Assembly (NCBI RefSeq): GCF_002001205.1
Contig: NZ_MUNZ01000188.1
Coordinates: forward strand, 1-64,000
Length of the DNA stretch: 64,000 nucleotides
Direction: 5' to 3'
DNA from: Hydrogenophaga sp. A37
Lineage (GTDB): Bacteria > Pseudomonadota > Gammaproteobacteria > Burkholderiales > Burkholderiaceae_C
The translations under genes and the position numbers were made by a program. The stretch's first letter is position 1; each line of letters opens with the position of its first letter. This document shows, piece after piece, positions 667-62,936 of the stretch. The notes beneath the pieces were generated by a model, which saw nothing but the letters and a program-made list of their open reading frames with translations, ran no database searches and was not told the DNA's origin.

Positions 667-815
667 GGCGGCTTGAGGACGGCGGGGCGGTGGCAGGCTC
701 TGCCAGGGGCGGCGGTGGCCAGATTCTGGCACCGGGCCGGCGTCGGAACGAGTCTCGCGACGCAGAAACGGGGCCACCCAAGGGCACCGGCGGGCCGGCT
801 CTGCCGGACGTCCAG

Positions 816-858
816 TGCCGCCCCCCTTTGGGGGTAGCGCGAAGCGCTGCGGGGGGCT
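816..858 (-). repeat. Partial copy of the 3'-end repeat (after the DUF1566 gene)
   Basis: Read on the minus strand, the sequence directly after the DUF1566 stop codon is GC-rich (CCCCCCGCAGCGCTTCGCGC) followed by a hairpin ACCCCC-AAA-GGGGGG. This matches the first half of the repeat family seen in full at about 19.15, 20.32, 31.10 and 62.86 kb. The 37-nt second hairpin is absent here. Confidence 0.6.
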
Positions 859-10872: not shown

Positions 10873-11958
10873 ATGTTGTTCGGCCTCTTCAAGTCCCGCG
10901 CGCCCGAGCCGCCACCGCCACCCGCAGCGGGTGCGGGTGAGAAAGCGGACGCGTTGTTGCGCCGCCTGGAGTGGACCGTGATCCGGCGGCTCGACGGCCT
11001 GCTGCAGGGCGACTACCGCACCCTCATGCGCGGCACCGGGCTCGACCTGGCCGACCTGCGCGAGTACCAGCACCACGACGACGTTCGCCACATCGACTGG
11101 AATGTCACCGCGCGGCTGCAGCAGCCGCACGTGCGCGTGTTCACCGAAGACCGCGAAATGGCGGCCTGGTTCCTGCTCGACCTCAGCCCCTCGGTGGACT
11201 TCGGTTCGGGTGAGCAGCGCAAGATCGAACTGCTGCAGGGCTTTGTCGGGGTGCTCGCGCGACTGATCAGCCGGCACGGCAACCGCGTGGGCGCGGTGCT
11301 CTATGGCGGGCGCGGCAAGGCGGTGGTGGACACGGTGCTGCCGCCGCGCGGTGGGCGGCTGCAGGTGTTGCGTCTACTGAACTTGTTGAAGACCCCCGCC
11401 GCGCAACGCGCGACCCCCTCAAGGGGGCGACACCAGCCGTCTCCAGCGGACAGCGGCGCCACCCGCCTGGCCGACCTGTTGCACATGGCCACCCACACCG
11501 TGCGCCAGCGCTGCACCGTGTTTGTGGTGTCCGACTTCATCAGCGAACCCGGCTGGGAAAGACCGTTGGGCGAGCTGGCGCGGCGCCACGATGTGGTGGC
11601 CGTGCGCCTGATGGACCCGCTGGAGCTGGAACTGCCGGACCTGGGCCTGATCCGCGTGCGCGACGCTGAAACCGGCGAGCAGTTGCTGGTGGACACGCAC
11701 GACAAGGGCTTTCGCCTGCGCTTCGCCCGCATCGCCGCGCAGCGTGAAGCGCAACTGCGCGAGAGCTTCACCCAGGCGGGCGTGGACACCCTGGAGCTGG
11801 CCACCGACGACGACCTGGCCGACGCAATCCTGCGTTTCGTGGACCTGCGCAAGCGCCGCCACGGGCTGCGCCAGGGCCTGCCTTCGCACCTGTCGACCCG
11901 TGCGTCTGCGGTCCACCCTTCTGCCGCCCGTTCAACCGCACCGGAAGGCACACCATGA
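10873..11958 (+). CDS. DUF58 domain protein, with an in-frame repeat insertion
   Basis: A 361-residue partner of MoxR. The DUF58 signature is seen in RGTGLDLADLREYQHHDDVRHIDWNVTAR, followed by a VWA-like fold (WFLLDLSPSVDFG). Between the strand ending LRLLNLLK and the helix TRLADLLHMA there is a Pro/Arg/Ser-rich segment of about 20 residues. It is encoded by positions 11391-11440, which match the first half of the window's dispersed 3'-end repeat. The frame stays open, so the protein is probably intact with an exposed loop. The C-terminal 35 residues after RKRRHG are low-complexity. The stop overlaps the next start (ATGA). Confidence 0.88.
   Translation: MLFGLFKSRAPEPPPPPAAGAGEKADALLRRLEWTVIRRLDGLLQGDYRTLMRGTGLDLADLREYQHHDDVRHIDWNVTARLQQPHVRVFTEDREMAAWFLLDLSPSVDFGSGEQRKIELLQGFVGVLARLISRHGNRVGAVLYGGRGKAVVDTVLPPRGGRLQVLRLLNLLKTPAAQRATPSRGRHQPSPADSGATRLADLLHMATHTVRQRCTVFVVSDFISEPGWERPLGELARRHDVVAVRLMDPLELELPDLGLIRVRDAETGEQLLVDTHDKGFRLRFARIAAQREAQLRESFTQAGVDTLELATDDDLADAILRFVDLRKRRHGLRQGLPSHLSTRASAVHPSAARSTAPEGTP
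11391..11440 (+). repeat. Half-copy of the dispersed 3'-end repeat inside the DUF58 gene
   Basis: The segment reads CCCCCGCCGCGCAACGCGCG, then ACCCCC-TCAA-GGGGGCGA. This matches the first 45-50 bp of the intergenic copies at 20.32 and 31.10 kb almost exactly. The 37-nt second hairpin is absent. The insertion leaves the DUF58 frame open. Confidence 0.75.
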
Positions 11959-17734: not shown

Positions 17735-17870
17735 TCGCTGCCCCCCGAGGGGGCTGACCCGGCTTGGGGCGGCCCGGCGCCGGATCGATGTAGCCCCCAC
17801 ACTCCGCCGCTGCGCGGGTCGTTCCCCCCGAGGGGCTTGGTTCGCCGTGGGCTGGCCCGGCGGCGAATCG
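17735..17870 (+). repeat. Two degenerate relatives of the 3'-end repeat
   Basis: Two segments downstream of the stop at 17635 contain CCCCCC-GA-GGGGG cores followed by GGCCCGGCGCCGG or GGCCCGGCGGCG, in the same order as in the full repeat copies. The 37-nt hairpin is not preserved. Assignment is by similarity of layout and is weaker than for the full copies. Confidence 0.4.
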
Positions 17871-17927: not shown

Positions 17928-19145
17928 ATGACAAACACGGTGGTGGTGGCTGGCGGCGGCATCGGGGGTCTGGCTTGTGCATTGGCGCTGTCCCGCGCTG
18001 GGGTGCAGGTCGACCTGCTGGAACAGGCGAGCGCGTTCGGTGAGGTGGGGGCGGGCATTCAGCTGGGGCCCAATGCGGTTCGGGTGCTGAACGACTGGGG
18101 CCTGATCAATGCTTTGCACGACTTTGCGGCCTTCCCCGAAGCCCTGGACGTGCGCGATGCCCACAGCGCCACGCACCTGGGCCATCTGCGGCTGGGTGCG
18201 CTGGCCCGTGCGCGTTACGGGCAGCCCTATGCCGCCATCCACCGAGCCGATCTGCACGGCCTGTTGTTGGATGCACTTCAGCACGAAAGCGGGGTGCGCC
18301 TGCACCTGGGCACCCGGCTGTCGAGCTACGAAGAATGCGCCACCGGTCTGAAAGTGACTTGCGAAAACGAGGCGGTGTTCGAGGCCGACGCGCTGATCGG
18401 CGCTGATGGTCTCTGGAGCCGCGTCCGCCTGGAGATGCAGGGCGTGCAGCCGGCGCGCGTGAGCGGACACCTGGCCTACCGTGGCATGGTGGATGCGCAA
18501 GACCTGCCTTCCGCGCTGAGCGAGCCTGTGGTGACGGCCTGGCTGGGGCCGCGCCTGCACGTGGTGCATTACCCGGTCCGGCGGGGCGAGCTGTTCAACG
18601 TGGTGGCGGTGGTCGAGGGGGTGTTGGGGCGCAACCATGGCGGCCCGCCCGGCAGCGACCCACAGAGCTGGAGCCACGAAGCGCGCCATGCCGATCTGCT
18701 GCGTGCGCTGGGGCCGGTGTGCCCCGATCTTGCGGCGATGCTGGAGCGGGTGCCCGAGTGGAAGCTCTGGGCGCTCAACGACCGCCCGCCGCTGTCCGCC
18801 GCTGCCGAACACGCGCGGGGCCGCGTGGCCCTGCTGGGCGACGCAGCGCATCCGCTGCGGCCTTACCTCGCACAAGGCGCGGCGATGGCGCTCGAAGACG
18901 CCTGGACCTTGGGGCGGCTGGCCGGTGCGGCGGGCGATGCGCCAGACTGGTCAGCGCTGTTTGCGCGGTATGCCGACACGCGTTGGCAGCGCAACGCGCG
19001 CGTGCAGCGCCGCTCGCAGCGCAACGGCACCATCTTTCACGCCAGCGGCCCGCTGCGTTGGGCGCGCAACGCCTCGATGGCGTTGCTGGGCGAGTCGCTG
19101 ATTGACAACCCCTGGCTGTACAACGGACCGCCGGAGCCGGTGTAA
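17928..19145 (+). CDS. FAD-dependent monooxygenase (salicylate hydroxylase/UbiH-like)
   Basis: A 405-residue group A flavoprotein monooxygenase. The FAD-binding GGGIGG is at residues 8-13, the DG motif is ADALIGADGLWSRVR, and the second FAD motif is ALLGDAAHPLRPYLAQGAAM. The family uses NAD(P)H and O2 to hydroxylate aromatic compounds, for example salicylate or 6-hydroxynicotinate. The substrate cannot be read from the sequence. The neighbouring Bug-type binding protein hints at uptake and catabolism of an organic acid, but this is inference. ATG 17928 directly precedes the FAD motif. A full 3'-end repeat copy follows the stop. Confidence 0.88.
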   Translation: MTNTVVVAGGGIGGLACALALSRAGVQVDLLEQASAFGEVGAGIQLGPNAVRVLNDWGLINALHDFAAFPEALDVRDAHSATHLGHLRLGALARARYGQPYAAIHRADLHGLLLDALQHESGVRLHLGTRLSSYEECATGLKVTCENEAVFEADALIGADGLWSRVRLEMQGVQPARVSGHLAYRGMVDAQDLPSALSEPVVTAWLGPRLHVVHYPVRRGELFNVVAVVEGVLGRNHGGPPGSDPQSWSHEARHADLLRALGPVCPDLAAMLERVPEWKLWALNDRPPLSAAAEHARGRVALLGDAAHPLRPYLAQGAAMALEDAWTLGRLAGAAGDAPDWSALFARYADTRWQRNARVQRRSQRNGTIFHASGPLRWARNASMALLGESLIDNPWLYNGPPEPV

Positions 19146-19146
19146 C

Positions 19147-19234
19147 CACCCCCCGCGCCGCCTGCGGCGTCACCCCCCAAGGGGGCGATGCGAGTGGCCC
19201 GGCGGAGCCGGTTCCACCGCATCCTGGGTGGGGA
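19147..19234 (+). repeat. Full copy of the dispersed 3'-end repeat
   Basis: The copy begins 1-2 bp after the monooxygenase stop. It has a GC-rich 5' part, the hairpin CCCCC-CAA-GGGGG, then a 37-nt hairpin at 19187-19223: GATGCG, A, GTGG, C, CCGGC, loop GGA, GCCGG, TT, CCAC, CGCATC. It differs from the copy at 20.32 kb mainly in the loop and the 5' part. Confidence 0.85.
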
Positions 19235-19339
19235 CATTTCGCGCCGGTGGGGAAGCAACGGCCGCTGTGAGTAGGCGTGCAGGTGCTGCACCTCGCCTGT
19301 TAGCCTGCTGGTCTGTTTTCATCCTCAAGAGGTCATCGC

Positions 19340-20314
19340 ATGTTCCGGCCCCAACGCCGCCACGCCATCGCCGCCGCCATCGCCATGGCCTGCAGCGCAT
19401 CTCCCGTGTTCGGCCAGACCCCTTGGCCCAGCCAACCGTTGAAGATCGTAGTGGGGTTCCCCGCTGGCTCCACGCCCGACCTGATGGCGCGGCTGCTCGC
19501 CGAGCCGCTGCAGCAGGCGCTGGGGCAGCCGGTGGTGGTGGAGAACAAGACCGGGGCCGGCGGCAACATCGCGGCCGACCAGGTGGCGCGTGCCACCGAC
19601 CACCACACCATCGGGCTGATGATCAACGGCAACTTGACCATCGCGAAGATCCTCAACCCGGCCACGACCTACGACCCGCTGAAAGACCTGACACCGGTGT
19701 CGCTGATCGCGACCTCGCCGCTGGTGCTCACCGTGCCGGCCAGCGTGAACACCTCGGGAGCAGCGTACTTCGCGGCCGCGCGCCAGTCGGGCGACAAATG
19801 GAACTACGGCACGCCGGGCGTCGGCACCGTGGCCCACCTGGGCATGGAGCTGCTCAAGGCCAAGGCCGGCATCGCGCCGGTGCACGTGCCTTACCCGGGC
19901 AACCCCCAGGTGATCACCGCGCTGCTGGGCGATCAGATCCAGATGTCGCTGCTGCCGCCGGGCCTGGCCATGGCCCAGGTGCGCGCGGGCAAGCTCAAGG
20001 CCATCGGCGTGACCTCGGCCGGGCGCAGCAGCGTGGTGCCCGAGGTGCCGAGCCTGGCCGAGGCGGGCGTGAAAGACCTGCAACTGGAAATCTGGAACGC
20101 GGTCGCCGCGCCCAACAGCCTGCCCAAGGCCCATGTGAACCGGCTGGCCACGCTGCTGACCGAGATCGTGCGCCGCCCCGAGATCCGCCAGAAGATCCTG
20201 GCCCAGGGCTGGCAGGTGGCGGGCACCTCGCCCGAAGGCTTGGCCAACCGCATCCGCGTGGACACGGCGGCGATGGCGGACGTGATTCAGAAGAACAACA
20301 TCAGGCCGAATTGA
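19340..20314 (+). CDS. Bug-family (TctC-like) periplasmic solute-binding protein
   Basis: A 324-residue protein with a signal peptide cleaved near VFGQ-TPWP. The Bug/TctC family is recognisable from WPSQPLKIVVGFPAGSTPD, the GAGGNIAAD loop, the YGTPGVGTVAHLGMELL segment and PEVPSLAEAG. The family binds carboxylated compounds and is greatly expanded in Burkholderiales, mostly without adjacent transporter genes, as here. The gene is flanked on both sides by repeat copies in the same orientation. The ligand is unknown. Confidence 0.9.
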   Translation: MFRPQRRHAIAAAIAMACSASPVFGQTPWPSQPLKIVVGFPAGSTPDLMARLLAEPLQQALGQPVVVENKTGAGGNIAADQVARATDHHTIGLMINGNLTIAKILNPATTYDPLKDLTPVSLIATSPLVLTVPASVNTSGAAYFAAARQSGDKWNYGTPGVGTVAHLGMELLKAKAGIAPVHVPYPGNPQVITALLGDQIQMSLLPPGLAMAQVRAGKLKAIGVTSAGRSSVVPEVPSLAEAGVKDLQLEIWNAVAAPNSLPKAHVNRLATLLTEIVRRPEIRQKILAQGWQVAGTSPEGLANRIRVDTAAMADVIQKNNIRPN

Positions 20315-20316
20315 CC

Positions 20317-20399
20317 CACCCCTGCGCCGCGCTGCGCGCGTCACCCCCTCAAGGGGGCGATGCGAGTGGCCCGGCGAAGCCGGTTCCACCGCATCCTGG
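20317..20399 (+). repeat. Full copy of the dispersed 3'-end repeat (reference copy)
   Basis: It starts 2-3 bp after the Bug gene stop. It contains GCGCCGCGCTGCGCGCG, the hairpin CCCCC-TCAA-GGGGG, and the 37-nt hairpin at 20359-20395: GATGCG, A, GTGG, C, CCGGC, loop GAA, GCCGG, TT, CCAC, CGCATC. There is no T-tract, so it is not a standard intrinsic terminator. Confidence 0.88.
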
Positions 20400-20441
20400 C
20401 CTCCGACATCTCGCTCCGGATCGGCTCACCCCCGCACCGGT

Positions 20442-21533
20442 TCAACTCCGCTCGGCGCCAAGGCAGGCGGCCATGGTCGACAGCTCGGTGTCCAGCGCCT
20501 GCTGGAACGTTTCATCCTTGGGCGGCTGTCCGTCCACGTAACCCAGGTCAGCACGCAGCCGCCCCTCCACCACCGACAGGTTGCCCCAACCGATGACCTG
20601 GTCGCGCCACAGCAGCGGCATGGCGTAGTAGCCGCGCACGCGTTGGGCTGGCGGTGTGTAGGCCTCGAAACGGTAGGCCCAACCCCACAGGCGTTCGAAG
20701 CGGTTGCGGTCCCAGACCACGGGGTCGAACGGTGCGAGCAGGCGAGCATCCTCGGGTGCCTTCCAGCGGCGTGAGCCGGGGTCTTCGTCCGCCGGCCAGT
20801 ACCACGCGACGCCGTCCACCTCGGCGTGGGGCAATCGCTGGACGGCGCGCTGCAGGGCGGCGCGCAACTGGTCCTGCCACTGCGGCACCGCGTGCTTGAG
20901 CATGGCCACCAGCTGACGCAGGCCGGGCTGCGGCAAGGGCGCGTACTTGTTCATCAGCACGTCGACCAACTGGTCCAGCACGGCGGGCACGTCGTCGGGC
21001 GCGGTCTGCGGCTGGTGCGCCGCGTAGAGGCGGATGCCGTTGTCGCGCCGCGCCACGCGCAGCAGGCCGCGGTAGTGCATGGCGTCGAGCAATTGGGTGC
21101 TGGCCTTGGACTGCCCACCCCACCAGTTGGTGGTGTGGCCATGGGCAAAGTGCGCGTCCACCTCGCGCGGGTGGGCTTCGCCCCGTTGTTGCACGTGGTG
21201 CCAGACTTCCTGCGCCTGCGCCCAGCGCTCGGGCGGCCATGCCTGGCGCGCGGTTCGCGGGTGCATGCGCGCGTGCAGTTCGGGTGTGACGAAGCCGTAG
21301 TTGACGAAGAAGTCTTCCTCCACCGCGAGCTTCGGGTATTGCCGCTCCAGGTCACCGGCCCGGTAGCCCTTCACCCGATGGCGCAGCGTCAGATCTTGCG
21401 CGCGGGCAGGCGAGCGGATCGGGTCGGCCTGCACGAAGCCCAGGCGGGCGATGGCTTTGGGCAGGGTGGTGGGCTTGAACAGGCTGCGGGCGACGGCGTA
21501 GCGGCGCAGGTCGGAGAGGGCGAGTGACGGCAT
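20442..21533 (-). CDS. YcaQ-family winged-helix protein (putative crosslink-repair DNA glycosylase)
   Basis: A 363-residue protein of the HTH_42/YcaQ family. The N-terminal region has the FVQADPIRSPARAQDL motif, which carries the QxD residues used by this glycosylase family, and a late WDRNRFERLWGWAYRFEAYTPP segment. E. coli YcaQ (now Nei3/AlkX-like) unhooks DNA interstrand crosslinks. The start MPSLALSDLRR at 21533 is chosen because the longer ORF start at 21662 would overlap kynA. Substrate in this organism is not shown. Confidence 0.85.
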   Translation of the reverse strand: MPSLALSDLRRYAVARSLFKPTTLPKAIARLGFVQADPIRSPARAQDLTLRHRVKGYRAGDLERQYPKLAVEEDFFVNYGFVTPELHARMHPRTARQAWPPERWAQAQEVWHHVQQRGEAHPREVDAHFAHGHTTNWWGGQSKASTQLLDAMHYRGLLRVARRDNGIRLYAAHQPQTAPDDVPAVLDQLVDVLMNKYAPLPQPGLRQLVAMLKHAVPQWQDQLRAALQRAVQRLPHAEVDGVAWYWPADEDPGSRRWKAPEDARLLAPFDPVVWDRNRFERLWGWAYRFEAYTPPAQRVRGYYAMPLLWRDQVIGWGNLSVVEGRLRADLGYVDGQPPKDETFQQALDTELSTMAACLGAERS

Positions 21534-21604
21534 CTCATGATCATGCCGCAGTGCGCTGTGCCAGCGCCCAGTCCGGCGCGAAATGCCCTGTCCAGCATGC
21601 GTTG

Positions 21605-21658
21605 GCATTGGCGCTCGCATCGCCCCCAGGAGGGTGACGCGCAGCACGACGCGGGGGG
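21605..21658 (-). repeat. Partial copy of the 3'-end repeat (after kynA)
   Basis: Read on the minus strand, immediately after the kynA stop: CCCCCCGCGTCGTGCTGCGC, then ACCCTCCTGGGGGCGATGCGAG. This matches the first half and the start of the second hairpin; the rest is lost. Confidence 0.6.
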
Positions 21659-22537
21659 TCACAACGCCGTGCGCAGTGTCCAGATTTCCGGGAAAAGGAC
21701 GACGTCCAGCATCTTGCGCAGGTAGCTGACGCCACCCGTACCGCCGGTGCCGCGCTTGAAGCCGATCACGCGCTCGACCGTGGTCACGTGGCGGAAGCGC
21801 CAGAGGCGGAAGGCGTCTTCCAGGTCGGTGAGTTCTTCGCCCAGCTGGTACAGGTCCCAGTGTTGTTTCGGATCGCGGTAGACGGTGAGCCAGGCCTGCT
21901 CAACCTCGGCGTGCGCCTCATAGGGCTGGGTCCAGTCACGCTGTGTGTGGCTTTCGGGCACGGCGATGCCGCGCCGCCCCAGCAGGCGCAGCGCTTCGTC
22001 GTACAGCGAGGGCGCCTCATACGCGGCCTGCACCATCGTCAGCCGTTCGGGGCTGTGCGCGTGGGGCTTGAGCATGGCGGCGTTCTTGTTGCCCATCGCG
22101 AACTCGATGCAGCGGTACTGAAAGCTCTGGAAGCCGCTGGACTGCGCGAGGTAGGGGCGCAGCGCGCTGTACTCGGGCGGTGTCATGGTGGCCAGCACGT
22201 CCCAGGCGTGCACCAGCTGCTCCATGATCTTGGAGACGCGCGCCAGCATCTTGAACGCGGTGTTGAGCTCGTCGTTGGCGATGTGTTTCACGGCAGCGTG
22301 CAGCTCGTGCAACATCAGCTTCATCCACAGCTCGCTGGTCTGGTGCTGCACGATGAACAGCATCTCGTCATGCGCGGGCGAGAGCGGTTTCTGCGCACTC
22401 AGGATGGCGTCGAGCTGCAGGTAGTCACCGTAGCTCATGTCCTGGCTGAAATCGAGCTGGGCTTTTTCTTCGGCCACGATGGCTTCGGTCCGGGACGCTG
22501 GTGTGCCGTCGGGTTCGGCGTGGAAGGGGCAGGACAT
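21659..22537 (-). CDS. kynA: Tryptophan 2,3-dioxygenase
   Basis: A 292-residue heme dioxygenase that opens the indole ring of L-tryptophan to N-formylkynurenine. Family motifs are [10 protein letters not shown] (near residue 35), the helix [20 protein letters not shown] with active-site residues, and the C-terminal [22 protein letters not shown] carrying the proximal heme histidine. The length matches the family. ATG 22537 ([11 protein letters not shown]) is chosen over the ATG at 22636 because it lies 11 bp after the kynU stop. It is the last gene of the kynB-kynU-kynA operon. Confidence 0.95.
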
Positions 22538-30780: not shown

Positions 30781-31098
30781 ATGGCTCAACCCGCTGCCAA
30801 GCAAGTGTTCATCCAGGGCGTCACCAGTACGGGGCGCGCCTTTCGCCCCAGTGACTGGGCCGAGCGGTTGGCGGGTGTGATGAGTCAGTTCCGCCCAGGT
30901 GGCGGCAAGGCCATGCAGGGCAGTCACATCGCCTACTCGTCCTGGTGCGTGCCCACGGTGATGAACGGGGTGAAAGTGGTGGTGGTGAGCACCGACCTGC
31001 GCGAAGCCGAACCCATGGCCTGGGATTTCGTCATGCATTTCGCGCGCGACAACGACCTGCAGGTGGTGGAAGCCTGCTTGATGCCGGACAAGATCTGA
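30781..31098 (+). CDS. DUF3579 family protein
   Basis: A 105-residue cytoplasmic protein matching DUF3579: FIQGVTSTGRAFRPSDWAERLAGVMSQF, then YSSWCVPTVMNGVKVVVV and AWDFVMHFARDNDLQVVEACL. The family is widespread next to argF-argD in Burkholderiales, with unknown function. It is divergent from argD. An AT-rich stretch TTATATAAGATAGAAT at 30671-30686 may hold its promoter. Confidence 0.85.
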   Translation: MAQPAAKQVFIQGVTSTGRAFRPSDWAERLAGVMSQFRPGGGKAMQGSHIAYSSWCVPTVMNGVKVVVVSTDLREAEPMAWDFVMHFARDNDLQVVEACLMPDKI

Positions 31099-31100
31099 AG

Positions 31101-31178
31101 TACCCCCGCCGCGCTGCGCGCGACCTCCTCAAAGGGGGCAACGCGAGCGGCCTGGCAAAGCCAGTTCCGCCGCGTTCC
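31101..31178 (+). repeat. Full copy of the 3'-end repeat with compensatory changes
   Basis: It begins right after the DUF3579 stop. The first hairpin is degraded (CCTCCTC-AAA-GGGGG). The 37-nt hairpin at 31140-31176 has the same layout as in the other full copies but different bases in its arms: AACGCG, A, GCGG, C, CTGGC, loop AAA, GCCAG, TT, CCGC, CGCGTT. Each changed base is matched by a change in the opposite arm. Confidence 0.85.
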
Positions 31179-31299
31179 GGGTTTGGGCACTTCGCTCCGG
31201 CGTGGTTTTTTGGCGCTGACTGCGGCGTCGCTCTGTCACGCATCGCATCCGCTATCCTCCGCTGATCGGGCATGTGCCCTGTTTCAGGAGTGATCCTTC

Positions 31300-32127
31300 A
31301 TGGCGATGGACGACGTTGACTACTTTTTGCACGGCGACGACATGCAGTGCGTCGAGATCGAGCTCGACCCCGGCGAGGCCGCGATCGGTGAGGCCGGCAG
31401 CATGATGTACATGGAAGATGGCATCCGGATGGACACCGTGTTCGGCGATGGTTCTGCCGCGTCGGGCTCGGCCGGCCTGTTCGGCAAGCTGCTCGGCGCG
31501 GGCAAGCGTCTGATCACGGGTGAATCGCTGTTCACCACGGTCTACACCAACGACGGCCGCGGCAAGAAGAAGGTGGCGTTTGCCGCGCCCTACGCCGGCA
31601 AGATCATGCCGTTCGACCTGAGCCGTTACGGCGGCACCCTGATCTGTCAGCGCGACGCGTTCCTCTGTGCAGCCAAGGGCGTGTCGCTCGGTATCGCGTT
31701 CCAGCGCAAGCTGGGCACCGGGTTCTTCGGCGGCGAAGGCTTCATCATGCAGAAGCTCGAAGGCGACGGCCTGGCCTTTGTGCACTCCGGCGGCACGGTG
31801 CTCGAGCGCCGGCTGCAGCCTGGCGAGGTGTTGCGTGTGGACACAGGCTGCGTGGTGGCCTATACGCCCGATGTGGACTTCGACATCCAGTTTGTCGGCG
31901 GCGTGAAGACGGCGCTGTTTGGTGGCGAGGGCCTGTTCTTTGCGGTGCTGCGCGGCCCGGGCACGGTGTGGATCCAGTCGCTGCCGTTCGCGCGCCTGGC
32001 CTCGCGCATCTTCGCGGCCGCGCCCAGGATGCAGGGCGGCGGTGGCCGTGGCGGCGAGCAAGGCGGTTTGACGAGTGGACTGGCTGGGGGTCTGCTTGGC
32101 GGCTTCATCGGTGGGGATGACGACTGA
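31300..32127 (+). CDS. AIM24/TIGR00266 family protein
   Basis: A 275-residue double-stranded beta-sandwich protein. Family features include [25 protein letters not shown] near the start, [20 protein letters not shown], and [24 protein letters not shown]. The last 35 residues are Gly-rich and may insert in or contact membranes ([20 protein letters not shown]). The yeast relative Aim24 is mitochondrial; bacterial roles are unknown. AGGAG lies 11 bases before ATG 31300. An intrinsic terminator follows. Confidence 0.88.
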
Positions 32128-32149
32128 CAGCGCTTTTGAGGCGCCCATG

Positions 32150-44915: not shown

Positions 44916-44941
44916 ATCGCAACCGGAGCGCGTGCATTTAA

Positions 44942-45005
44942 CCCAGGTGGAACCGGCTTCGCTGGGCCACACGCATCGGGTGAAGCCGCAGGTGGCGCGG
45001 GGGGA
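44942..45005 (-). repeat. Degenerate copy of the 3'-end repeat (after pdxH)
   Basis: Read on the minus strand after the pdxH stop: CCCCCCGCGCCACCTGCGGC, then GATGCG, T, GTGG, CCCAGC, loop GAA, GCCGG, TT, CCAC, then CTGGG. The CCCCC/GGGGG hairpin and the closing CGCATC arm are missing. Confidence 0.65.
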
Positions 45006-45010
45006 TCCTG

Positions 45011-45646
45011 TCAAGGTGCCAACCGCTCCCTCAGCCACCCGCCGTCGGCTTGTAGCGTGTAGCGCAGCCGGTCGTGCAGACGGCTCTTGCGGCCCTGCCA
45101 GAACTGCCAGTGGTCGGGCTTCAAGCGATAACCTCCCCAATGCGGTGGGCGCGGTGGTTGCAGCAGGAATTGCGCGCCGTATTTCGCCGCGTTGGTCACC
45201 AGCACGGTGCGGCTGTCGATCACTTCGCTCTGCGGGCTGGCCCAGGCGCCGATGCGGCTGTCGAGCGGGCGGCTGTGGAAGTACGCGTCGCTCTCGGCGT
45301 CGCTCACTTTCTCCACCATGCCCTCAATGCGCACCACGCGCTCCATCTCGACCCAGTGAAACTGCAAGGCGGCGAAGGGGTTGCCGGCCAGCTCGCGGCC
45401 CTTGTGGCTCTGGTAGTTGGTGTACCAGACAATGCCGCTTTCATCGAACCCCTTGATGAGCACGATGCGGGTGCTCGGGCGCAGGTTGGACCCGACGGTG
45501 GCCAAGGTCATGGCGTTGGGCTCGGGCACTTCGCCGCTGATGGCTTCGTTGAGCCAGCGCTCAAATTGCTTCAACGGATCGGCGTGAGAGGCCGACTCGC
45601 TGAGTTCGGCTTTTTCGTAGCTTTTGCGCAGGTCGGCGATGTTCAT
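45011..45646 (-). CDS. pdxH: Pyridoxamine 5'-phosphate oxidase
   Basis: A 211-residue FMN enzyme that makes pyridoxal 5'-phosphate from PNP or PMP. Conserved parts are [33 protein letters not shown] (FMN binding), [15 protein letters not shown], and the C-terminal [19 protein letters not shown]. The last residues RLAP are the family terminus. ATG 45646 is chosen over upstream ATGs because [10 protein letters not shown] aligns with the family. Confidence 0.95.
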
Positions 45647-47060: not shown

Positions 47061-47099
47061 CCCACAAAAAAGCCCGGCAATACCGGGCTTTTTTGTGGG
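47061..47099. terminator. Bidirectional intrinsic terminator
   Basis: CCCACAAAAAAGCCCGG, loop CAATA, CCGGGCTTTTTTGTGGG: a perfect 17-bp stem with A- and T-runs on both strands. It serves the OmpA-like gene (+) and gloA (-). Confidence 0.95.
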
Positions 47100-51701: not shown

Positions 51702-51762
51702 GGAGTGGAATCGGGGAGAGGAATGACGGGTTGAGATCATCGCAGGGCGTCGCGGTTCCGGC

Positions 51763-51923
51763 AGAGGCTGAGAGTTTTTCGGCCGGGCCTGAAAGGCGCG
51801 CCAAAACGGCCCGGGTCTAGGCGCAAAACACAGCCGTAGCTCGGGCTACGGCGAGCATTTGCAACGACGAACTGGGTCGTTTTGGCGTGCAAGGCGGGCA
51901 TGGACGAAAGACTCTCAGCCTCT
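51763..51923. repeat. Triple-nested 161-bp inverted repeat
   Basis: Outer arms 51763-51781 and 51905-51923 match at 18 of 19 positions (AGAGGCTGAGAGTTTTTCG on the left). Middle arms 51796-51812 and 51874-51890 match at 15 of 17 (GCGCGCCAAAACGGCCC on the left). The centre is a perfect GCCGTAGC-TCGG-GCTACGGC at 51833-51852. The structure starts at the yeeE-like stop codon and fills the gap before the DsbG-like gene. Long nested symmetry of this kind suits a structured RNA, a miniature transposable element or a chromosomal extragenic palindrome. No T-run is present. Confidence 0.8.
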
Positions 51924-62823: not shown

Positions 62824-62854
62824 TGCGCGGCGGCCCCCGGAGCGAAATCCCTCA

Positions 62855-62936
62855 ACCCAGGATGCGGTGGAACCGGCTTTGCCGGGCCACTCGCATCGCC
62901 CCCTGGAGGGGGTAGCGCGCAGCGCTGCGGGGGTGT
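62855..62936 (-). repeat. Full copy of the 3'-end repeat (after the OmpA-like lipoprotein)
   Basis: Read on the minus strand, the copy begins at the lipoprotein stop codon. It has CCCCCGCAGCGCTGCGCGC, the hairpin CCCCC-TCCA-GGGGG, and the 37-nt hairpin at 62897-62861: GATGCG, A, GTGG, C, CCGGC, loop AAA, GCCGG, TT, CCAC, CGCATC. Confidence 0.87.

Follow-up and report, generated by a model that had tools for sequence, protein, structure and literature searches.

A three-hairpin repeat in the window

The DNA analysed here, called the window in the following, is a stretch of 64 kb in which full, decayed and partial copies of a GC-rich palindromic repeat occur on both strands (Table 1). A covariance model of 82 positions, R1, was built from 30 aligned copies found by blast. 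With this model, the four full copies listed in the initial annotation of the window were all recovered, at 88.7-106.8 bits. Among the partial copies listed there, those at 21605-21658 and 44942-45005 turned out to be decayed elements (37.2 and 30.6 bits), and the one at 816-858 is part of a full-length copy at 776-857 in which hairpin C is of another type. Weaker copies had been proposed at 17735-17870, a region that R1 matches at an E value of 2.2 and that is occupied by two units of a second family, F2. A copy at 11391-11448, absent from the earlier list, was found by R1. The seven other copies start -1 to 7 nt past a stop codon and run in the direction of the gene that it ends; none of them is followed by a T-tract, as had been stated from the outset. 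A search of the whole window with Rfam gave only a tRNA above the gathering score, with two sub-threshold matches in 19100-20450.

Table 1. Copies of the repeat and of family F2 in the window, and sites at which the stop codon differs between empty and filled alleles.
Feature	Position	Strand	Position relative to gene	R1 score (bits)	Folding	Hairpins or element
Full copy	19150-19230	+	4 nt past stop ending at 19145	88.7	-51.8 kcal/mol, z -2.7	A ~19155-19170, B 19173-19185, C 19187-19223
Full copy	20319-20402	+	4 nt past TGA 20312-20314	95.1		C ~20359-20395
Full copy	31101-31183	+	2 nt past TGA 31096-31098	95.0	z -2.7	A 31110-31122, B 31124-31138, C 31140-31176
Full copy	62854-62935	-	directly past stop of minus-strand gene ending at 62936	106.8	z -3.2	A 62914-62926, B 62899-62912, C 62861-62897
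Full copy, other hairpin C	776-857	-	2 nt past stop of minus-strand gene ending at 860	63.3	z -1.9	C of GGCACTGG...CCGGTGCC type
Decayed copy	21589-21659	-	one-base overlap with minus-strand gene ending at 21659	37.2
Decayed copy	44940-45003	-	7 nt past stop of minus-strand gene ending at 45011	30.6
Partial copy	11391-11448	+	inside called gene 10873-11958	35.1
Two tandem F2 units	17741-17870	+				CCCCC..GGGGG hairpin and variable stem closing on TTGGGGCGGCCCGGC or a variant
Stop-change site	window 9837					R1 element
Stop-change site	window 32125					R1 element
Stop-change site	C125 43909		flgI			R1 element
Stop-change site	C125 49404					F2 element

In the alignment of the 30 copies, the element reads from 5' to 3' as a C-run (CACCCCC), hairpin A, hairpin B, the 37-nt hairpin C, CTGGG and a loosely kept tail; the unit comprises about 82 nt and the loose tail extends to about 110 nt. 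Hairpin A is found as CGCGC-TGC-GCGCG, as AGCGC..GCGCT or as GCGCCGC..GCGGCGTC, and hairpin B is CCCCC-TCAA-GGGGG. Hairpin C consists of a variable 6-bp base, a bulged base, GTGG/CCAC, a C/TT internal loop and CCGGC-RRA-GCCGG. The earlier description of the layout thus holds for the CCCCC/GGGGG hairpin and the 37-nt hairpin, whereas the GC-rich block that it placed in front of them is a hairpin itself. Folding is better than for shuffled sequences in four of the five full-length copies of the window (z -2.4 to -3.2), and the fifth, at 776-857, has the z value given in Table 1. For the copy at 20317 the predicted minimum-energy structure is another fold.

Covariation was assessed in 66 distinct sequences taken from 60 stretches, 56 of other genera and four of the genus. 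In this alignment, which was fitted to R1 and therefore leans towards its structure, pairing is kept in 99.1% of cells for the 15 pairs of hairpin C, 11 of which have changed on both sides. For the whole structure, 14 of 23 pairs change on both sides, with 173 double-change cells as compared to 42.6 in shuffles, and the signal is lost when the pairing partners are slid. The third hairpin has a hypervariable stem with strong covariation: its basal stem occurs in 61 distinct forms among 217 aligned rows, 169 of which are fully paired. Thirty-four of these forms are fully Watson-Crick, ten depart from this only by G.T next to the bulge, and 17 show another departure. Exchange of whole hairpins among copies may explain the scarcity of intermediate stems. 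A wobble asymmetry favouring selection at the RNA level was looked for in the variable stems and not found. Away from the bulge-adjacent pair (pairs 1-5 of the 61 distinct stems) there are five G.T and seven A.C mismatches, and as these numbers are about equal, they give no sign of selection on the sense RNA alone.

Placement relative to stop codons

The position of the copies relative to genes was analyzed with uncurated gene calls from a codon-usage gene finder trained on 99 stretches around copies of the own genome. Among 150 own-genome copies, five lie inside called genes, three at contig edges and 142 in intergenic regions. The gene upstream of these 142 points in the same direction as the repeat in 135 cases (81 tandem, 54 convergent) and in the opposite direction in seven. 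Copies that are in sense and start -3 to 14 nt from the stop number 121 of the 142, against 26.2 +/- 4.0 expected when placement and strand are randomized in the same gaps; the highest value in 20,000 simulations was 44. When distances are taken from the first C of the C-run, a stop of the same direction is found no farther than 40 nt away for 132 of 145 copies; in 126 of the 132 the copy begins 0-14 nt past that stop. The initial observation thus holds, and the case for it is stronger than first assumed.

The analysis was extended beyond the own genome. In the 60 stretches mentioned above, 53 of 67 matches follow a same-direction gene, all 53 at 0-22 nt, while ten follow an opposite gene, two lie inside genes and two have no called upstream gene. 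In the independently annotated sequence of Diaphorobacter sp. HDW4B, a stop ends at 1486 and the match, which begins with query base 12, starts at 1501, leaving about 3 nt between stop and element. In another family of the order, f4, copies at 20 loci carry a different apex (GGACCGGCGGAGCCGGATCC); here the first copy starts 2-10 nt past a same-direction stop at eight loci, lies at 23-100 nt at another eight (some behind partial units) and follows an opposite gene at four. The view of the initial annotation, that the repeat is palindromic, dispersed and tied to stop codons in the orientation of the gene, is therefore supported both by the own genome and by stretches from other genera.

We also considered the stop codon as a part of the repeat unit and rejected this on the basis of 58 near-identical pairs of copies. 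Identity upstream of the unit amounts to 0.3-0.5 for about four bases and to background beyond, and the stop is shared in 27 of 55 cases as compared to 41% by chance, which is no clear excess. Since the homology of near-identical copies ends near the C-run, the stop belongs to the host gene.

Copy number and distribution

The own genome (5.55 Mb in 195 contigs, placed in Hydrogenophaga by its nearest named relatives) contains at least 150 R1 matches, 150 being the number of candidates scored. In 715 kb of it, consisting of the window and the 99 stretches, 187 matches were obtained at E 0.01, one of them counted twice. Extrapolation from the five matches above 60 bits in the 64-kb window suggests a total of about 430 copies. 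R1 matches were found in 35 of 60 relatives; they are present in 35 of the 36 genomes of the genus, the own genome included, and in none of 24 genomes of other families. A family-wide search, in which 15 candidates per genome were scored, gave matches in 184 of 299 genomes, which represent 93 of the 126 genera sampled, and an order-wide one in six of 200 genomes, two of the six belonging to f4. Named carriers are Hydrogenophaga, Variovorax, Acidovorax and Diaphorobacter. One f4 genome (G434), in which 112 of the 150 candidates scored are matches, contains a tandem array of four units, 3 nt apart, at 3180377-3180717, as well as further direct arrays. Three tandem units about 30 nt apart are found at one further locus (L148); most copies of the own genome are single. 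Carriage by plasmids or phages was considered and set aside: at E 1e-4, matches were present in three of 72,556 plasmid records, all of them replicons larger than 0.7 Mb, and in no phage record.

Gain, loss and exchange of copies in related genomes

For comparison we used Hydrogenophaga sp. MAG_7 (G360), which is about 91% identical over the roughly 94 kb of aligned length compared. Copies present in only one of the two genomes are common. Fifteen own copies were tested against G360, of which 12 could be mapped; ten have a partner and two are absent, namely the one at C125 12188 and the window copy at 11391-11448, which is missing from the orthologous gene. In four of the ten orthologous pairs the elements are 94-99% identical with flanks of 81-90%, which indicates some constraint, although gene conversion could have the same effect. 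Two of the ten copies have decayed by deletions (21589 and 44940), and the remaining ones resemble their flanks or are of another type. The ortholog of the 21589 copy has decayed as well, through different deletions. In the 44940 copy, hairpin B has been lost together with the 3' arm of the hairpin C base, and this copy folds no better than shuffled sequences (z 0.6); its ortholog is more complete. The hairpin C of the 20319 copy differs from that of its G360 partner at four pairs, each compensated on the other arm, and the partner has the hairpin C of the window copy at 31101. Thus, orthologous copies may carry a hairpin C or A of another type.

A series of filled and empty sites was found behind the stop codon of flgI (protein fragment P0003), within the flgI-flgJ operon, where the own genome is empty. 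Nine of 31 Hydrogenophaga genomes have an element of varied subtype directly behind this stop, six detected by R1 (L376, L378, L384, L388 with two units, L396 and G360) and three by eye only (L379, L382 at E 0.29, and L386). The base before the stop is A in six of the nine filled and in one of the 22 empty genomes, counts that are uncorrected for relatedness. At the same flgI stop, three Hydrogenophaga genomes (L383, L387 and L395) have a different inverted repeat, CTTCGACAGGCTCAGCCCGAACGG or a close variant.

In 80 named argB loci, R1 gives 11 matches anywhere in the loci. The element lies right behind argB in Variovorax sp. PCZ-1, Acidovorax soli and one Acidovorax MAG, and a reversed copy is found behind argB in four Hydrogenophaga, one recognized by eye (L251) and three by R1 (L253, L259 and L266). 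These reversed copies are evidence against a strict orientation rule. In L251, L253 and L259 the reversed copy runs up to a CTAG just ahead of the ATG of the next gene. At window positions ~32125-32128, a copy has been added between a stop codon and an intrinsic terminator in G360 and in a second genome, G025 (L403, 60.9 bits); the same terminator is kept in these two and in the empty own genome. The initial annotation had considered a mobile relic. Its mobility is borne out, but since related genomes gain, lose and replace copies, the repeat is more than a relic.

Stop codon usage differs between genes with and without a copy. TAA and TAG together make up 44% in the 128 copy-bearing genes (TGA 72, TAA 29, TAG 27) and 16% in 485 other genes of the same stretches (TGA 407, TAA 46, TAG 32; chi-square p 8e-11), and the shift persists with p 5e-4 when only gaps of at least 100 nt are considered. 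TAG is not known to be favoured by high expression. At four sites (Table 1), the empty own allele has TGA and the filled G360 allele TAG or TAA, the gene end being nearly kept. Filled and empty alleles have the same stop elsewhere, e.g. at C125 12162, 20435 and 3116, several of the sites compared have TGA in both states, and seven of the nine filled flgI sites retain TGA. The shift is in line with insertions that at some sites take over the end of the stop; there the insert would supply or alter the stop codon.

Further repeats

Units of F2 consist of a C-run, hairpin A, hairpin B and a variable paired stem with the loop TTGGGGCGGCCCGGC. Among 24 matches to the F2 core in the own stretches, 13 lie behind a same-direction gene, eight inside called genes and three behind opposite genes. 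The core is located 54-62 nt past the stop in 11 of the 13 sense copies, one exception being the window unit at 128 nt, and F2 thus follows a rule similar to the stop anchoring of the main repeat. A further family, F3, which corresponds to the reverse strand of a related core, was seen by eye to start at stops and to end in GGAGGT, resembling a ribosome-binding site, before the next start; it occurs near C125 48080-48164 of the own genome and on contig C90 of G360, also in tandem. At 51760-51922 the window contains a 163-nt insert with imperfect terminal inverted repeats of 55 nt (AGAGGCTGAGAGTTTTTCGGCC...), which is absent from the orthologous place in G360 and looks like a MITE. Convergent genes are separated at 47061-47099 by a perfect inverted repeat of 17 bp that has a T-tract on either side and looks like an ordinary bidirectional intrinsic terminator.

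Discussion

In our work presented here we describe a repeat that is placed in sense mostly 0-14 nt past stop codons, that covaries strongly in its third hairpin, turns over at single stops and swaps hairpin types. Judged from the sequences, and leaving the enzyme aside, we give about an even chance to the reading that it is a non-autonomous mobile REP-like palindromic element which is kept as an RNA border behind the last ribosome. New copies would arise by DNA duplication, possibly through single-stranded hairpin DNA as in REPs and with gene conversion between copies. They would persist almost only where the translated region ends and so form the first structure of the 3' UTR. The hairpins would most likely act in the RNA, where such a border could block 3'-5' exonucleases and hold the 3' ends of transcripts after termination further downstream; strong terminators they are probably not. 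Of the roles named in the initial annotation, protection of the upstream transcript and pausing of RNA polymerase may likewise apply. Several aspects of the data fit less well. As the hairpins are nearly palindromic, a function of the hairpins only leaves the rarity of the reverse orientation unexplained, and this rarity speaks for oriented insertion or for sequence-specific recognition. Furthermore, the similar numbers of G.T and A.C mismatches count against a purely RNA-level constraint, which should favour G.U. Further points against this reading are the decay of two of the ten orthologous copies and the absence of two own copies from G360, the TGA retained at most filled flgI sites, and the copies that depart from the placement rule: seven intergenic ones in the own genome, ten of 67 matches in the 60 stretches, the reversed copies behind argB, and the f4 loci at which the copy follows an opposite gene or lies at 23-100 nt.

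The rarity of reverse copies (135 of 142 in sense) is accounted for if the repeat is a mobile element without host function that inserts one-way at, or a few bases around, in-frame stops and then decays. The gain of different subtypes at a single flgI stop inside an operon, the altered stops at four filled sites together with the shifted stop usage across the genomic stretches, the A preceding the stop in most filled flgI genomes, the decayed orthologs and the homology that ends near the C-run, leaving the stop to the host gene, all agree with this. In tight operons, however, an insert can be tolerated only at the gene junction, and flgI alone is therefore no proof of targeting. Moreover, no inserting enzyme was found, no target-site duplication was seen by eye at the filled-empty junctions between the own genome and G360, and in four of the ten orthologous pairs the element is better conserved than its flanks. 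Reading the frame of a stop would in addition require coupling to translation, and we know of no precedent for a frame-reading, translation-coupled insertion process. We regard insertion that chooses stops as possible but doubtful, about half as likely as retention as an RNA border. Its more specific form, in which the repeat enters in one orientation at in-frame stops, operons included, sometimes rewrites the stop and the preceding base, and has its spread tied either to the termination of translation or to the place where the translated RNA ends, appears improbable to us.

A terminator, either intrinsic without a U-tract or assisting Rho, could have spread because it ends transcripts, and the initial annotation had mentioned this role. 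The GC-rich hairpin cluster adjoins the stop, 54 of the 135 sense copies lie between convergent genes, and at least seven facing pairs exist among the 150 own-genome copies analysed. A published study predicts termination by hairpin clusters near stops even where a U-tract is lacking, the more so when genomic GC is high (PMC8355165). Genes that bear a copy have T-tract-like sites behind them less often than other genes (17 of 136 as compared to 45 of 162), a difference that is confounded by facing genes. On the other hand, TTTT is found within 25 nt behind only four of 142 copies (background for TTTT or AAAA: 279 of 2507 intergenic tiles). Where the downstream gene has the same direction (85 copies), 16 copies end within 40 nt of its start, and one facing pair, identified by eye, lies between two overlapping genes. 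Copies inside flgI-flgJ and the one inserted upstream of the canonical terminator at window 32128, which filled and empty genomes alike have preserved, weaken the proposed role further. Few T-tracts, operon-internal copies and a copy before an intact terminator thus argue that the repeat is not primarily a terminator, and we consider this explanation unlikely.

Least probable in our view, with a rather small chance, is a classical REP of a REPtron that is moved by a TnpA-REP (RAYT) and has to be read antisense, as CCAG followed by hairpin C with an AA/G bulge. This bulge resembles the AA-GC bulge known from E. coli REPs (PMC8266576), and a Y1_Tnp gene is present in 34 of 40 Hydrogenophaga genomes, in nearly all of them as a single copy. 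By inspection, however, neither a GTAG nor a CGTC tag is found on either strand of the 30-copy consensus, and the 31 of 36 Y1_Tnp places that were searched, with about 1.5 kb on each side, gave no R1 match below E 3 (best E 3.2). One genome (G016) has a Y1_Tnp gene and no R1 match, whereas two others (G021 and G031; 84 and 64% complete) have no Y1_Tnp gene although 56 and 70 of 75 scored candidates match. With no linkage of R1 copies to Y1_Tnp genes at these places, the connection to a REP transposase was set aside. The surroundings of the own-genome Y1_Tnp gene, downstream of which lies a gene that we take to be gltB, contain two weak palindromes and no R1 copy. An inverted repeat similar to TTAATTGGGGTCAGA was observed near a Y1_Tnp (RAYT-like) gene at locus L242, and such genes occur at L031 and in other genomes of the genus. 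Integron attC sites, which also follow stops, were considered and set aside by inspection.

Should the repeat indeed be retained as an RNA border, a single family would define where the 3' UTR begins for hundreds of genes in one genome, without classical terminators. Insertion that reads translation, if true, would instead represent a way of choosing targets that is new for mobile elements. The empty, filled, reversed and swapped sites of close relatives offer a natural series on which retention for an RNA function and targeting of stops can be tested against each other. To our knowledge, REPs pose the same choice between retention for an RNA function and selection of stops.

Comparison with known elements

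E. coli REP/BIME elements form hairpins in 3' UTRs, for which roles in RNA stability, in attenuation and in translation near the stop have been proposed; their sequence and layout differ from those of the repeat described here. The likeness to REP/BIME in position that had been noted initially is confirmed, as the repeat is extragenic, palindromic and close to gene 3' ends. Published GTAG and CGTC REPs are for the most part found no more than 20 bp from the 3' ends of genes, convergent and unidirectional REPs are close to 3' ends, and REP ends may supply a TAG stop (PMC3733652). As far as these REPs (PMC3733652) and REPINs (PMC3116915) are described there, they share with our repeat that they are palindromic, dispersed and mostly located behind genes. 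They differ from it in that here three hairpins follow in fixed order and in sense, the C-run and the CCCCC-loop-GGGGG hairpin are conserved, and there is neither a tag nor a linked RAYT. Canonical intrinsic terminators are likewise GC-rich hairpins behind stops; the present repeat has no U-tract, occurs inside an operon and can be added upstream of a real terminator.

The closest resemblance is to the Beta-proteobacterial repeat element (BRE) named in 2011 in Bordetella. In the sections of Hot et al. that define it, BRE is a GC-rich, intergenic element of about 75-91 bp with partial copies and tandem arrays, with few bases between units, present in Bordetella and Comamonadaceae, with 29 copies in Polaromonas JS666; none of the contexts in its Table 3 is between divergent genes, and mobility is suspected there while no function is assigned (PMC3110155). 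Compared with this description, our repeat agrees in length and place (a model of 82 positions, 142 of 150 copies intergenic, partial copies), in GC richness, in tandem arrays with units 3 nt (G434) or about 30 nt (L148) apart and in the lack of divergent contexts, and, as far as its named carriers Hydrogenophaga, Variovorax, Acidovorax and Diaphorobacter go, probably in hosts. Since these features match BRE and REPs near 3' ends are known, the kind of element is known and the family is probably BRE. A search of the open-access literature for the five core oligonucleotides gave no paper, nor did one for such repeats in Hydrogenophaga, and no description of oriented stop anchoring, of the stop shift or of a series of filled and empty sites came to light there. 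In those sections of the BRE study nothing is said on how the copies are oriented towards genes or on anchoring at stops, and copy numbers reach at most 29 by its own thresholds, as compared to at least 150 here (PMC3110155). Thus, what is new about this repeat are its sense orientation, its anchoring at stop codons and its turnover.
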